Positions 11,250 through 19,259 of a stretch of DNA of 64,000 nt are shown here, one piece after another. The position numbers and the translations under genes are program-made. Source of the DNA: Candidatus Roizmanbacteria bacterium (GTDB taxonomy: Bacteria; Patescibacteriota; Microgenomatia; UBA1406; GWC2-37-13); contig JACRJL010000003.1 in NCBI GenBank assembly GCA_016215445.1, positions 466,924 through 530,923 on the forward strand. Reading direction: 5' to 3'. The notes under the pieces were generated by a model. The model did no database searches. It was not told the DNA's origin and worked only from the letters and a program-made list of their open reading frames with translations. Each line of letters opens with the position of its first letter. The first letter of the stretch is position 1.

Positions 11250-11486
11250 CTATCCTACGTCTGGTTCACCGGGAAGATTGATAAATTGATCTTGTCTCCT
11301 AATCCCAGGTTTCAAGCCATTCTTTGGATTACAAGTATCGCAAATGATTGGTAGTTTATTTTGTTTTAATCCCCGAGCTTTATTAAAATCGTCTCCCTTA
11401 AGCAAAATAAAATACCCGCATCTATTACATTTAAACCAACCCGAAGGGAACTCTTTATTGTTTATTGTTTTATTTTCTATTGACAT
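11250..11486 (-). CDS. Small zinc-ribbon protein, immediately downstream of the ammonia-lyase
   Basis: Two CxxC pairs (KCNRCGY...ICDTCNP); starts directly after the ammonia-lyase stop. Confidence 0.6.
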   Translation of the reverse strand: MSIENKTINNKEFPSGWFKCNRCGYFILLKGDDFNKARGLKQNKLPIICDTCNPKNGLKPGIRRQDQFINLPGEPDVG

Positions 11487-11487
11487 A

Positions 11488-13023
11488 TTATTTGAGTTTT
11501 CCGATGACGGATTCCGCGGTTTCTAATATCAGATAGTTACGGATTAAAGGCACCATTTTTTCTATGTCCAAGTAAAAAGCGCGGTCTTCTGTAATCTCCG
11601 GACTGACTGATCTGACCAATTTATAGACAGCCTGAAAAGTTTTTGACGGTTTTACAGGTTTTCTAAATTCATAAGCCTGACAGGTCGCCAAAAGTTGGAT
11701 AGCGACGACAGCTTCTGTATTTTTTATAATCTCCCGGGCTTTTCTGGCGGCAATGGTGCCGAATGAGACGTGGTCTTCTTGGTTTCCGGAAACAGGAATC
11801 GAATCAACACTGGCAGGACCCGCAAGAATTTTATTCTCCGAGACTAACGCCGCCTGGGTATATTGTGAAATCATTAGTCCCGAGTCCAACCCGGCGCTTT
11901 TTACCAAAAAAGCAGGTAGGTCTTTGGAACAGGCAGGATCCATCAAGTTATTTGTCTGCCTTTCGGAAATGTTTCCCAAATCAGTAATAATAATTCCCAG
12001 AAGATCCTGGGTGTAACCAATCGGTGCGCCATGAAAGTTAGCCCCTGTTCGGCAGATCTTTTCCTTTGTATAAAAAATCGGATTGTCGGCAACGGCATTC
12101 ATTTCAATCTCAGTGATTTTTCGGATATAGTCCATCGCGTCTCGGCAGGCCCCGGCCACTTGCGGTACAGATCTAAGTGAGTATGCGTTTTGGACGTTTT
12201 TTTTCGGCCTTTTCATCAATTCGCTTCCACTAAACAGTTTTCTAAGATTGGCAGCAGAATCGTTTTGTCCCTTAAAAGGTCTGACTTCGTTATATTCCTT
12301 GCTGTAGGGAGTTTCTACACAGTTCAAAACATCAATAGTCATACTACAGACAATTTCTGTCTGTTTTATTAGTCTTTCTGTATCGTAAATATTGAAGGCG
12401 GCGATTGCGGTCATGAATTGAGACCCATTCATAATTGCCAGTCCTTCCCGGTAGGCAAGAGGTACCGGTTTTATACCGGCTTTTTTCATGGCAATATCGC
12501 CGGGCAGAATCTTTCCTTGGAAATAAGCCTTGCCTTCTCCTATCACAACCAGCCCCATTTGTGACAATGGAGCCAGATCGCCTGATGTTCCGACAGAACC
12601 TTTTTCATAGAATGCCGGAGTGACTCCTTTATTTAACATTTCAACAAAAGTGTTAAAAAGAATTGTTCTGACTCCGGAATAACCTTTGGCAAAGACGTTT
12701 AATCTAAGTAATAAAGTGGCCTTGGCAATTTCCTCTTCGACAATTTTTCCATAACCCGAAGAGTGGGCGCGAAGCATCCTTGTGGAAAGCTCTCCGGCTT
12801 TTTCTTTGGAAATAGTGACATTTCCGAATCCGCCGATGCCCGTATTTAAGCCATACATGACGTCGCCCCGCTCCAGCATTTCCGCGATGGCGTTCCAGTT
12901 GTCATTAATTTTTTTTATAACTTGGGGAGGAATAATTACTTTGGCATTATCGCGGGCGACAGCCACTACCTGTTCAACTGTTAAATCGTTGCCCGTCAAG
13001 AAAACTTTATCTATTTTTTTCAT
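11488..13023 (-). CDS. hutH: Histidine/aromatic amino acid ammonia-lyase (MIO family)
   Basis: 511 aa; YGLNTGIGGFG, GSVGTSGDLAPLSQMGLVVIGEG, LNGSQ-type MNGSQFM, QDxxS-type NQEDHVSFG; substrate specificity not established. Confidence 0.88.
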   Translation of the reverse strand: MKKIDKVFLTGNDLTVEQVVAVARDNAKVIIPPQVIKKINDNWNAIAEMLERGDVMYGLNTGIGGFGNVTISKEKAGELSTRMLRAHSSGYGKIVEEEIAKATLLLRLNVFAKGYSGVRTILFNTFVEMLNKGVTPAFYEKGSVGTSGDLAPLSQMGLVVIGEGKAYFQGKILPGDIAMKKAGIKPVPLAYREGLAIMNGSQFMTAIAAFNIYDTERLIKQTEIVCSMTIDVLNCVETPYSKEYNEVRPFKGQNDSAANLRKLFSGSELMKRPKKNVQNAYSLRSVPQVAGACRDAMDYIRKITEIEMNAVADNPIFYTKEKICRTGANFHGAPIGYTQDLLGIIITDLGNISERQTNNLMDPACSKDLPAFLVKSAGLDSGLMISQYTQAALVSENKILAGPASVDSIPVSGNQEDHVSFGTIAARKAREIIKNTEAVVAIQLLATCQAYEFRKPVKPSKTFQAVYKLVRSVSPEITEDRAFYLDIEKMVPLIRNYLILETAESVIGKLK

Positions 13024-13047
13024 AAGTTTTTAATAATTTATAACCAC

Positions 13048-13071
13048 AAAAAAACCCGCCTCGTCGACGGG
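13048..13071 (-). terminator. Leader terminator (attenuator) upstream of hutH
   Basis: Minus-strand CCCGTC-GACGA-GGCGGG hairpin (6 bp, one G-U) followed by T7. Confidence 0.7.
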
Positions 13072-13096
13072 GTAGAGAATTAATGTTAAATATTAA

Positions 13097-13168
13097 TTAC
13101 ATAAAAGCTGACCCCGCCTGAGGCAGGGAATGATGCGAATTTAAGTTCGTCAAGTTTATCAAGTTCAT
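13097..13168 (-). CDS. Putative leader peptide MNLINLTNLNSHHSLPQAGSAFM upstream of hutH
   Basis: 24-codon ORF with tandem His codons directly before hairpin CCTGCC-TCA-GGCGGG; stop precedes an AT hairpin. Confidence 0.45.
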   Translation of the reverse strand: MNLINLTNLNSHHSLPQAGSAFM

Positions 13169-13186
13169 AAATTTATAAAGACATTT

Positions 13187-13204
13187 ATATTAACGTGTTA
13201 ATAT
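13187..13204. promoter_or_regulatory. 18-bp palindrome, putative TrpR-family operator between hutH and the first yerC/trpR-like gene
   Basis: ATATTAACGTGTTAATAT; overlaps the predicted hutH start site; 13/18 identical to the palindrome at 19265-19282. Confidence 0.5.
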
Positions 13205-13247: not shown

Positions 13248-13535
13248 ATGAATAAATTTATTTCCTATAAACCGAAAAACGACAAAGAGAAGTTTTTAGC
13301 AAAGTCATTTTTGAAGTTAAAAACAGAACAGGAAGTGGCTAATTTTTTGAGAGATTTATTGACGATAAAAGAAATAGAAGAATTTTCGAATAGACTCGAA
13401 ATGGCGAGGCTTCTTAAAAAGGGATTATCTTACAAAGCAATCGCTAAAAAGCTCAAAGTTTCGACGACGACAGTTACCCGTACGGCTCACTGGTTGTTTA
13501 GAGGTTGTGGAGGTTATGAAAAGGTTTTGAAATAA
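13248..13535 (+). CDS. TrpR/YerC-YecD family transcriptional regulator (copy 1)
   Basis: EVANFLRDLLTIKEIEEFSNRLEMARLLKKGLSYKAIAKKLKVSTTTVTRTAHWL: TrpR-superfamily helix-turn-helix. Confidence 0.88.
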   Translation: MNKFISYKPKNDKEKFLAKSFLKLKTEQEVANFLRDLLTIKEIEEFSNRLEMARLLKKGLSYKAIAKKLKVSTTTVTRTAHWLFRGCGGYEKVLK

Positions 13536-16099: not shown

Positions 16100-17563
16100 T
16101 TAAAGTAAGCCCATTTTATGTTTAACTTCTTTGACTGTTTCTCTAGCAATTCTGTGAGCTCGTTCTGCGCCGTCCCTTATCACCTCGTCAACGTATTTCT
16201 GATCAGCGGATATCTTTGCTCTTCTTTCCTGGAAAGGCTTGAGTTCCTTGTAAATCGCTTCGGCAATCCTGTCTTTTAACTCCACAAATTGGAGAGATTT
16301 ATCTTGATATGATTTTTTGAATCCCTCAACTTCGCTCGGAATAAATAGTTGAGCGAATATAAAAAGCGTTTTAAGTCCTGGTGACATTTCGCCTCCGGCC
16401 GCAGTTGCCGTCGGAACCGAACGGATTTTTTTCCTTATTTTTTCGAGCGAATCGGTTAAATTTATAAAACTATTGACGACTGTTTTGCTCATTTTTCCCT
16501 CTCCAGTCAAAGAAGGAATATATTCTCCTTTAGTGGCAAAACGTACTGGTTCGGGAAAATCTGTGCCATAAAGCTGGTTCATTTTGCGAGCTATTTCTCT
16601 AGCCACTTCCAAATGCGGTTCTTGGTCGATTCCGACAGGGACAAGTCCTGCCTTATAAATGAGAATGTCTGATGCCATAAGAACAGGGTAGTTTAATAAT
16701 GCCATTGTATTTGCATCAGGATGTTGTTTCACTTTATCTTTATAAGTAGGTAAGTGTTGCATTCTGGCGATTGTGACTACCGAGGAAAAGTAAAACGCCA
16801 ATTCAATGTGTTCGGGAACTTCTGACTGATAGATGATGATGCTTTTTTTTGGATCAAGTCCGGCTGCCAGATAATCGATAATAATTTCCCGTTTATTTTT
16901 GGCCAAGGCATTTTTGTCATAAGGCGTAGTGATCGAGTGGACGTCGACAACACAGTAGACGGTTTCATACTCGCCTGATTTCTCAAGCTCGAGAAACCCC
17001 TTGACTGCACCCAAATAATTTCCCAAATGCAGTCTGCCCGTGGCCCTGATTCCCGAAAAAACTCTTTTTACAGAAGTTGAATGGGATTTTTCCTGTTCAA
17101 TAGGCACTGTGACGTCGACAACTTCTACACCTGGCAGTTTCTTAAGATCTTCGGAAAGGCATTGAAAGGTATAGTTCAGACTACCTGTACCGCCCAAAAT
17201 ATATTTCTTGCCAAAAACTTCTTTGTCTATATAGGTTTTGAGATTTGGGACATAAAATCGGGCTGTTCCGATTTCAAGTCCGGTCACTTTAGAAAATTCT
17301 TCTGGGGTAGCGATTCTTAAAGATTCAATTCCCAATAATTTTTTTATTTTTTTGAAGGATATTTTTGTGACATCTCTTCTCAAAACAGCTATGAAATCAT
17401 CGTCGGCCTTCATGATCAACGTCGCCACACTGTCGTCAAGAGTATAACCAAGATGATTGACAACCTGAGCGGCTTCGACAAGAGGCGGGTGTTCAAGAAC
17501 CTTATTTTTTATTCCCAGCTCCTCCATTTTTTTACAATAGTCCAAAACAATTTTGTCTGTCAT
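16100..17563 (-). CDS. trpS: Tryptophanyl-tRNA synthetase with N-terminal YbaK/prolyl-tRNA-deacylase-like domain
   Basis: YbaK-like N-terminus (VLEHPPLVEAAQVVNHLGYTLDDSVATLIMKADDDFIAVLRRDV...GTGSLNYTF), then TrpRS: FSGIRATGRLHLGNYLGAV, VPVGIDQEPHLEVARE, GEGKMSKT. Confidence 0.9.
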   Translation of the reverse strand: MTDKIVLDYCKKMEELGIKNKVLEHPPLVEAAQVVNHLGYTLDDSVATLIMKADDDFIAVLRRDVTKISFKKIKKLLGIESLRIATPEEFSKVTGLEIGTARFYVPNLKTYIDKEVFGKKYILGGTGSLNYTFQCLSEDLKKLPGVEVVDVTVPIEQEKSHSTSVKRVFSGIRATGRLHLGNYLGAVKGFLELEKSGEYETVYCVVDVHSITTPYDKNALAKNKREIIIDYLAAGLDPKKSIIIYQSEVPEHIELAFYFSSVVTIARMQHLPTYKDKVKQHPDANTMALLNYPVLMASDILIYKAGLVPVGIDQEPHLEVAREIARKMNQLYGTDFPEPVRFATKGEYIPSLTGEGKMSKTVVNSFINLTDSLEKIRKKIRSVPTATAAGGEMSPGLKTLFIFAQLFIPSEVEGFKKSYQDKSLQFVELKDRIAEAIYKELKPFQERRAKISADQKYVDEVIRDGAERAHRIARETVKEVKHKMGLL

Positions 17564-17571
17564 ATTTTTAA

Positions 17572-18879
17572 TTATAACTTATGGTGTAAAAATTTGTCAT
17601 AGCCGTTGAGGTCCAAAAGTCCGTGGCCGGAAAGATTGAAAAGAATCACTTTTTTCTTTCCCTCATTGCGGGCTTTGACTGCCTCGTCCATGACTGCTTT
17701 AATGGCGTGACTTGATTCGGGCGCGGGAACAATGCCTTCGGTTCGGGCAAAGTCGATTCCTGCCTGAAAGACCGGTTTTTGATCATGAGCAACAGTTTCC
17801 ATTAACTTCTCGTTATAAATAAACGAGATCAAAGGCGCCATGCCGTGATACCTTAATCCTCCGGCGTGGATCGGTGAAGGGACAAAACCGCTGCCCAAGG
17901 TATACATTTTCAAAAGGGGCGTCATCTGGGCAGTGTCGCCAAAGTCGTATTCGTATTTTCCCTTGGTCAGGGTCGGACAGGAAGCCGGTTCAACTCCGAC
18001 AAACCTGATTTTCCTTTTTTCTCTCAGTTTGTCAACCAGGAAAGGAAAAGCAATGCCGGCAAAGTTGCTGCCTCCGCCGACACAGCCTATGATGATATCA
18101 GGATATTCTCCAGCCTTTTTCATCTGTTTTTTCGCCTCCAGTCCTACTATAGTTTGATGTAGTAAGACATGATTTAATACACTTCCTAAGGAATATTTAT
18201 AGCCCTTATTTTTGACAACAGTTTCCAAAGCCTCGCTGATCGCAATCCCCAATGATCCTGGATGTTTTTCATCTGTTTTCAATACTTTTTTTCCGAATTC
18301 CGTTTTATCAGACGGGCTGGCAAAGACTTCGGCGCCGTATGTTTCCATGACGGTTTTACGAAACGGTTTTTGGTCGAAACTGACTCTCACCATGTAAACA
18401 ACCAGTCTCATTTCAAAAAAGTTGGTTGCCAGGGCAAGAGCCGATCCCCACTGGCCGGCTCCGGTTTCCGTCGCCAAAGTTTTCACGCCCTCTTTTTTGT
18501 TATAGTAAGCCTGAGCGATTGCTGTATTTAATTTATGAGCTCCGGTTGGAGATGCGCCTTCATATTTATAATAAATATGAGCCGGCGTGTCCAAAAACTT
18601 TTCCAGACGATGTGCCCGGATAAGGGGAGTCGGCCGATAGAGTTTATAAAGTTCCCTGACTTCTTCGGGAATTTTAATTTTTTCCTCAAGTGACACTTCC
18701 TGTTTGATCAATTCCATTGGAAAAATTGCGGATAAATCTGCCGGTCCGATAGGCTGTTTGGTGACAGGATTTAAAGGCGGATCTGGAAGTTTCTTCAGGT
18801 ACTTGTTTAGATAATAAGAAATATTAAGATAATACTCAGGTATTTCTGAGTCTGATAATGTGATTTTTGTGTTTTTCAT
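17572..18879 (-). CDS. trpB: Tryptophan synthase beta chain, TrpB2-like
   Basis: [61 protein letters not shown]; start [10 protein letters not shown] chosen because the longer ORF start lies in the leader terminator. Confidence 0.92.
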
Positions 18880-18907: not shown

Positions 18908-18931
18908 AAAAAAGCCGCCCATGCGGACGGC
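18908..18931 (-). terminator. Leader terminator (attenuator) upstream of trpB
   Basis: Minus-strand GCCGTCC-GCAT-GGGCGGC hairpin (7 bp, one G-U) followed by T6. Confidence 0.75.
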
Positions 18932-18951
18932 ATTTGAATGACTTTAATTAA

Positions 18952-19017
18952 TTAAAGTAGCCACCCGCTTCGCGGATATGTTTTCTGCCAGCAATTTTTA
19001 TTTGAATAGTTTTTCAT
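18952..19017 (-). CDS. Putative trp leader peptide MKNYSNKNCWQKTYPRSGWLL
   Basis: 22-codon ORF with two Trp codons, ATGA overlap with the upstream regulator stop, followed by a three-segment attenuator-like structure. Confidence 0.5.
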   Translation of the reverse strand: MKNYSNKNCWQKTYPRSGWLL

Positions 19018-19259
19018 ATTTTTTTAAACCTTCCCATTTTTATTTCTCTCGATCCTCTTGTCACTGTCGCCACGCCGACTTTAAGACGGCGAGCAATCTC
19101 CTGGTGGGGGAGGCCGGTTTTCAAAAGCTTGACGATTTGTAATCTCGTAATTAACTCCTCAAGTTCCCTTGGAGTTAAAATTCCTTTTAAAAACTCGAGC
19201 ATCTCGCTTCTTGTTTTATTTTTCAAAAAAGCATTGACCAACTCCCCTACTTTGTTCAT
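19014..19259 (-). CDS. TrpR/YerC-YecD family transcriptional regulator (copy 2)
   Basis: LTPRELEELITRLQIVKLLKTGLPHQEIARRLKVGVATVTRGSREIK: TrpR-superfamily helix-turn-helix. Confidence 0.9.
   Translation of the reverse strand: MNKVGELVNAFLKNKTRSEMLEFLKGILTPRELEELITRLQIVKLLKTGLPHQEIARRLKVGVATVTRGSREIKMGRFKKI

Follow-up and report, generated by a model that had tools for sequence, protein, structure and literature searches.

In the stretch of DNA analyzed here (the window, 64,000 nucleotides), the gene for histidine ammonia-lyase (HAL, hutH) is preceded by a leader that satisfies nearly all the testable sequence criteria for a His attenuator, the exception being a ribosome-binding site, which was not found. 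The anatomy of this leader, its conservation, the control cassette that it shares with the histidine-biosynthesis (his) operons of relatives, and the swap of genes behind that cassette are shown by sequence. It is very likely that the leader is a His attenuator that allows expression at low histidine; leader translation, ribosome stalling, and polarity are inferred from sequence alone. The full explanation that we favor combines this low-His attenuator with a TrpR-family layer of control and with HAL as a supplier of histidine; it is likely, without expression or biochemical data to support it as yet.

Anatomy of the HAL leader

The leader and HAL are preceded by a promoter, TTGACA-17-TATCAT (13231 to 13203, minus strand), which matches the consensus at 11 of 12 positions and is kept in relatives. 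An 18-bp palindrome, ATATTAACACGTTAATAT (13187 to 13204), overlaps the -10 region and is the presumed operator of a divergent TrpR-family regulator. The leader ORF (13168 to 13097, minus strand) encodes the peptide MNLINLTNLNSHHSLPQAGSAFM followed by a stop codon and has homologous leaders in relatives. Its control codons, CAT CAT for His-His (13130 to 13135, minus strand), belong to a CATCA motif that is invariant in 8 family leaders. Next comes hairpin 1:2, CCCTGCC-TCA-GGCGGGG (13128 to 13112, minus strand), with 100% of cells paired in 8 sequences. Arm 2, GGCGGGGT (13118 to 13111, minus strand), is the 5' half of an antiterminator of 8 bp, one of them G-U, and the 3' half is arm 3, ACCCCGTC (13073 to 13066, minus strand), which overlaps the 5' arm of the terminator. 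This intrinsic terminator 3:4, CCCGTC-GACGA-GGCGGG-TTTTTTT (13071 to 13048, minus strand), is conserved. Between the antiterminator arms lies an AT hairpin, AATTAAT/ATTAATT (13098 to 13078, minus strand), and most leaders have a hairpin at this position despite differing sequence (e.g., AGTTAACTAGTTAACT). The antiterminator and the terminator are mutually exclusive and stand ahead of HAL (511 amino acids; 11488 to 13023, minus strand), the first gene downstream of the leader terminator.

All the elements that the original prediction had named, i.e., the leader ORF, CATCAT, the 1:2 hairpin, the 8-bp antiterminator with one G-U, the AT hairpin, and the T7 terminator, were confirmed in place. The leader RNA folded 3.65 SD below dinucleotide shuffles, a test which also showed a fold combining 1:4 and 2:3. 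The leader ATG lacks a Shine-Dalgarno sequence. A comparison with Rfam, including the enterobacterial His_leader, gave no family match, with only a weak, subthreshold score for Trp_leader (18.2 bits versus 41).

Conservation and alternative pairing of the leader

A protein search for HAL in the family covered 73 genomes, the window genome being G000 (roughly 0.94 Mb), whose size and gene content suggest a Patescibacteria-like organism. HAL relatives were 87 to 88% identical in G028, G014, and G025 and 44 to 45% identical in G029, G003, G018, and G017, and the leader was present in all eight HAL genomes of these two lineages (G000 included). A 43% match in G071, located at a contig end, had no leader. 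The control codons were His-His in seven of the eight family leaders and His-Gln in that of G003. Homologues without the His codons or without the three pairing segments would have refuted the attenuator; it passed this test, since both are retained.

Arm 2 spans +11 to +18 past the second control codon in 8/8 family leaders. Including the leaders of G246, G400, and G390, from other families of the class, 11 leaders were tested, and in each of them the arm 2/arm 3 duplex outdid nearly all shuffles (P from 0 to 0.013). The leader stop codon lies 18 to 39 nt after the His codons, and a ribosome finishing the leader covers arm 2 in 11/11 cases. Covariation was silent within the family because arms 2 and 3 are invariant there, which makes this comparison uninformative. 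Across the class, the antiterminator pairing was preserved through changes on both sides at 3 pairs, with a covariation score matched by 1 of 500 shuffles. The alignment behind this class-wide score was made by hand and limited to the two arms, an approach biased by construction toward the structure.

The effect of a ribosome on these pairings was approximated by a crude model in which RNA is masked up to 11 to 12 nt past the A-site codon. With the A site on the first His codon and arm 4 still unmade, arm 2 was predicted to pair with arm 3 with a probability of 0.71 to 0.99. When the modeled ribosome was placed on the stop codon, it covered arm 2, leaving the terminator as the sole structure that could form. 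At equilibrium, 2:3 was more stable than 1:2 in most leaders when the RNA was untranslated, so superattenuation of the textbook kind is not guaranteed. Full-length RNA carrying a stalled ribosome still favored the terminator at equilibrium in G028, G014, and G029, and the switch would therefore depend on the order of folding, i.e., on a kinetic lead of 2:3.

As a separate observation, G+C-rich palindromic intergenic repeats (GCCCGCCGAAGTTT..AACGAAGG) lie between the terminator and the HAL start at loci L006 (1 to 166) and L007 (620 to 788).

The same cassette precedes his operons in relatives

We built a covariance model, R2, solely from the eight HAL leaders and ran it over the 73 family genomes; R2 superseded a first model, R1, in which a helix was misplaced. 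R2 recovered all HAL leaders together with regions upstream of hisG-hisD operons in G016, G027, G050, G060, G049, G062, G065, and G072, with E values of 1e-15 to 3e-3 at these his-operon leaders. Plain terminators appear among the matches at E values above about 0.01, and such matches were discarded unless hisD followed directly. The peptides of the his-operon leaders hold His-His, as in MKQFNNKTISFFSHHTSPQAGSPIM and MSQQSLNTTVSIHHLLASAG. The gene order of the his operon was fully read for G016, G027, G050, and G060.

The regulator gene divergent from the HAL leader (13248 to 13535, plus strand) encodes a HisR-like member of the TrpR/YerC family (TIGR02531, 59.3 bits versus a cut-off of 42.2; PF01371, 68.7 bits). 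This protein is 85% identical between the HAL locus of the window and the his-operon loci of G016 and G027, which belong to the same genus. Its presumed operator, the 18-bp palindrome, occurs only once in the window genome, even with up to 2 mismatches allowed, and is seen again in relatives at the leaders of both HAL and his operons. The divergent regulator with its single genomic operator would probably provide a second layer of histidine control; its role as a repressor and its ligand are inferred, and no binding data are available. The original prediction had called induction at His limitation odd for a catabolic HAL. Since this leader and this TrpR-family gene precede histidine-biosynthesis operons in relatives, HAL is wired as a histidine-supply gene.

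The gene order RarA-TrpR-leader-X-GT2 glycosyltransferase(-cl5) is common to G000, G028, G003, G018, G017, G021, and G047, and one side of it is visible at contig ends in G025, G029, and G030. The slot X is occupied by HAL in G000, G028, and G025; by HAL and a ThrC-like enzyme in G029, G003, G018, and G017; by two aminotransferases in G021 and G030; and by an unknown gene with an M20 peptidase in G047. The his operon of G016 is flanked by the same TrpR gene on one side and by cl16/RmlC/GT2 on the other, and in G027, TrpR and GT2 enclose the his operon together with additional genes. The shared cassette and the gene swap indicate that HAL takes the place of the histidine operon behind a common set of controls. 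HAL and the his operon were found in 8 and 13 of the 73 family genomes, respectively, without overlap, numbers too small to establish mutual exclusion. The factor common to the contents of the slot would be the recovery or synthesis of histidine, the roles of the aminotransferases, the peptidase, and a racemase-like protein being inferred from family names.

The aminotransferase-like proteins, of about 500 amino acids, form a pair that sits in the HAL slot in G021 and G030 and after HAL in G017 (L186, L187, and L022). The racemase-like protein is encoded behind a His leader in G051 (L201, G051:C8, 2696 to 4099, minus strand) and consists of a histidine-racemase-like domain fused to a GNAT domain (NF052224, E value of 4e-28, below the cut-off). 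A protein related to this fusion is encoded near HAL in G384 (L157:9143-10558).

Tandem-His leaders precede most HAL genes of the phylum

The family search and the class-, order-, and phylum-wide searches yielded 24 HAL loci, which we compared with a control set of 80 HutH loci of other phyla. A leader was scored when a run of two to four His codons was present in a short ORF within 330 nt upstream. Such an ORF preceded HAL at 19 of the 24 phylum loci and hutH at 5 of the 80 controls (Fisher P = 4e-12; about 3e-7 with one representative per lineage). One of the 19 leaders, that of G025, is truncated by the contig end and shows no start codon. Among the five control matches, four use non-ATG starts, and hutU adjoins half of the 80 control loci. 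Peptides encoded by the phylum leaders include MTVLQTNAAHHRPQHKVAGVVFAA, ...CLHHHHTAG, MNQTHHHFGHHCHLLPAQHLC, and MIFLQHHSHFHHHMIHHIQLGIN. Four HAL genes, those of G071, G182, G294, and G697, have no His leader.

HALs with a His leader fall in at least three separate places of the HutH protein tree, and hisS is near HAL in many class and phylum loci. In G697, HAL follows the gene order hisS-hisG-hisD-...-hisI-TrpR, some members of which are named from sequence resemblance only. G294, from the same class, carries a true hutI-hutH-hutU operon without leader and without TrpR gene. Histidinol dehydrogenase (hisD) was undetected in 22 of the 24 HAL genomes, as was urocanase in 21 of the 24. Neither histidinol dehydrogenase nor urocanase (PF01175) was detected in the window genome, the absence of his genes being judged on hisD alone.

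Two HAL genomes with a leader do encode urocanase, G003 (the His-Gln case) in the same cluster and G545 about 4 kb away. In G502, G554, and G545, which belong to another class (L153, L154, and L155), the ORF of the His leader ends at the sole terminator or extends into it, an arrangement like that of pyrBI, for which the opposite polarity is possible. It is conceivable that the two urocanase-bearing genomes and the three with terminator-reaching leaders are wired differently. The leaders of G172, G314, G302, G295, and G217 are without the same terminator layout and could act on either transcription or translation. In G295 (L041/L028), the TrpR-family protein itself carries the His run as its C-terminal tail.

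HAL and the direction of its reaction

HAL of the window scored 570.8 bits with the equivalog model TIGR01225 (hutH), above the cut-off of 539.15, and matched Pfam PF00221. It keeps the active-site residues of solved HALs, namely, Y57, H87, N199, Q278, Y281, R284, F330, and E416, which we take to be the counterparts of Tyr53, His83, Glu414, and others of the His-selective residues of the Pseudomonas putida enzyme. The presumed MIO-forming triad is Thr-Ser-Gly in the lineage of the window HAL, a departure from the usual Ala-Ser-Gly, and Ser-Ser-Gly in most of the second lineage, with Ser-Gly retained.

In textbooks, HAL catalyzes the first step in the degradation of histidine. Its reaction is reversible, with an equilibrium that favors urocanate, and reversal therefore requires urocanate and ammonium. 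No importer of urocanate was identified. A precedent for reversal comes from Fuchs and Kane (1985), cited in PMC9002059, whose title reports that a cloned HAL synthesized histidine in vivo. The supply of histidine is the most likely role of HAL in the window genome, because no histidinol dehydrogenase or urocanase was detected and because the his operon of relatives lies behind the same cassette. On balance, we lean toward an enzyme working in reverse, in which case HAL would aminate urocanate with ammonia to form histidine rather than degrade histidine; this direction is inferred and no biochemical data bear on it.

A bolder reading, to which we give slightly better than even odds, can be considered. 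Members of this reduced phylum may use reverse HAL as the histidine-forming step, in an exchangeable slot behind the His-responsive cassette of TrpR-family repressor and attenuator. The slot genes and the racemase-like gene would then be alternative routes for recovering histidine from the precursors of neighbors, as trpB2 would recover tryptophan from indole. His-starvation control in the place of a his operon would imply that the direction of HAL is misannotated by pipelines in a large group of uncultured bacteria. Reverse HAL offers a testable answer to the source of histidine in bacteria without his genes, and attenuator leaders make it possible to infer, with nothing but sequence, what salvage enzymes do in the cell.

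Two neighbors of HAL were also noted. A small zinc-ribbon-like protein is encoded directly after HAL (window 11250 to 11486, minus strand) and is conserved in both G028 and G025. In the second HAL lineage (L019 to L022 and L045 to L047), a threonine-synthase-like PLP enzyme is encoded directly 3' of HAL, with a TIGR00260 score just above the cut-off for L020.

Proposed mechanism and alternative explanations

In the mechanism that we propose, the attenuator would sense charged His-tRNA and HAL would be switched on at histidine shortage. When histidine is ample, the ribosome would pass His-His and halt at the leader stop just past arm 2; the halted ribosome would mask arm 2, the 3:4 terminator would form, and transcription would stop. 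When histidine is scarce, the ribosome would stall at His-His and mask arm 1, and the freed arm 2 would pair with arm 3 before arm 4 is made, so that transcription continues into HAL. The classical geometry with induction at His limitation, as originally predicted, is supported by sequence, with stalling and polarity remaining inferences.

Among the alternatives, we took most seriously relic control: a true low-His attenuator that came along with the cassette and is left over from a his operon formerly in that place, with HAL still degrading histidine or using another amino acid. The HAL genes of two lineages, merely 44% identical, stand behind the cassette, so genes were swapped in, the urocanase of G003 is in the same cluster as HAL, and deamination is the direction favored by HAL under standard conditions. 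Against this, tandem-His leaders of unrelated sequence are found in at least three separate HAL lineages, many beside hisS and not hut genes, and the active-site residues (Tyr, His, Asn, Gln, Tyr, Arg, Phe, and Glu) are retained. In addition, a degradative enzyme induced by shortage would be harmful and the codons should decay, yet they persist. We consider relic control unlikely. Still less likely is a reverse polarity, in which a ribosome reaching the stop codon would keep the terminator open and HAL would be induced by abundant histidine. The pyrBI-like layout of G502, G554, and G545, the last also with a urocanase, is compatible with such read-through at high histidine. However, in the window family, G246, G400, and G390, 23 to 41 nt separate the stop codon from the downstream terminator arm 3, and it is arm 2 that is masked; moreover, the same leader governs histidine biosynthesis, where induction by high histidine would be senseless.

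A TnaC-like mechanism, with a nascent peptide that senses free histidine and stalls the ribosome when histidine is high, is likewise very improbable. TnaC is a known leader-peptide solution for a catabolic operon (PMC8429421), but the residues around His-His are unconserved beyond the constraints of the RNA arms, whereas the RNA arms, the identity of the codons, and the position of the stop are conserved. Finally, the His codons and G+C-rich palindromes might coincide by chance or reflect a dispersed repeat, and G+C-rich palindromes do occur between genes in these genomes. A dispersed repeat was rejected, the hairpin sequence being present at one other genomic place only (up to 2 mismatches). 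Chance is contradicted by conservation across HAL genes that are 44 to 88% identical, by the contrast with the control set, and by the matching Trp system at trpB2, and both versions are refuted by the leader counts at HAL loci, the R2 matches at his operons, and the class-wide covariation of the antiterminator; this explanation is all but excluded.

Relation to known systems

Attenuators with His codons and TrpR-family HisR regulators have already been described for his operons (PMC9413887). Like the enterobacterial hisL (Rfam His_leader), the HAL leader has tandem His codons, an exclusive antiterminator and terminator, and a predicted induction at low histidine. It differs from hisL in its number of His codons (two, not seven), its short layout of four arms, and the absence of an Rfam match, and also in its target, histidine ammonia-lyase, and its coupling with a TrpR-family regulator. 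The candidate His attenuators of Firmicutes (PMC9413887) share with it consecutive His codons directly ahead of the attenuator hairpin; those candidates precede his operons, contain three to five His codons, belong to a different phylum, were sought in genomes without HisR, and are not on HAL.

The regulator of the window resembles HisR (PMC9413887) in its TrpR/YerC family, its palindromic operator at the promoter, and its association with his operons, and an HisR paralogue of Oscillibacter clusters with hutH and hisT (PMC9413887). Unlike HisR, the window regulator forms a divergent pair with a His attenuator, has ATATTAACACGTTAATAT as its operator consensus, and is found in a Patescibacteria-like genome. 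With the catabolic HutH of hut operons, the window HAL has in common the enzyme family and the active-site residues. In contrast to catabolic HutH, the HALs of the phylum mostly have no urocanase or hutI neighbor and are under His-starvation control, with the Thr-Ser-Gly triad in the window lineage. In the literature searched, the coverage of which was incomplete, nothing was found that described HAL under a His attenuator, the two controls combined at one promoter, or any attenuation in this phylum. The attenuator is of a known kind, whereas its target, its lineage, and its metabolic implication are apparently unreported in that literature.

A companion Trp system at trpB2

The window contains a second leader of this type ahead of trpB2, a gene for a TrpB-like enzyme (17572 to 18879, minus strand; TIGR01415, 651.3 bits; NF009057, 698.5 bits). 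The Trp leader peptide, MKNYSNKNCWQKTYPRSGWLL followed by a stop codon (18952 to 19017, minus strand), has counterparts with WW/WWW or W..W before trpB2 in most relatives. Its elements comprise an AT hairpin (18942 to 18957), the terminator GCCGTCCGCATGGGCGGC-T6 ahead of trpB2 (18908 to 18931, minus strand), and an antiterminator of 8 bp, GCGGGTGG/CCGTCCGC, read from the sequence. Upstream, a second TrpR-family gene (19014 to 19259, minus strand) has a stop codon that overlaps the start codon of the Trp leader (ATGA), and this overlap (19014 to 19020) may reflect a translational coupling of the two. Like trpL, the trpB2 leader has Trp codons, a 1:2 hairpin, and a terminator; unlike trpL, it targets a stand-alone TrpB-like enzyme and is coupled to a TrpR-family gene by the overlapping ATGA. 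TrpB2 could join indole and serine in a presumed salvage of indole, which would parallel the case of HAL.

Classical leader-peptide attenuation, for His, Trp, and apparently Phe/Tyr, is thus encoded in this phylum. In the same part of the window, a gene at 16100 to 17563 (minus strand) encodes a tryptophanyl-tRNA synthetase with a YbaK-type tRNA editing domain fused at its N terminus (PF04073 and PF00579). In another genome, the leader MTGKNKNYYFFFYPTLGGVVF (L202, G057:C95, 5431 to 5518, minus strand), with a similar hairpin and terminator, lies before a shikimate-like operon encoding transaldolase-like, DAHP-synthase-like, and other proteins, and is likely a Phe/Tyr attenuator.
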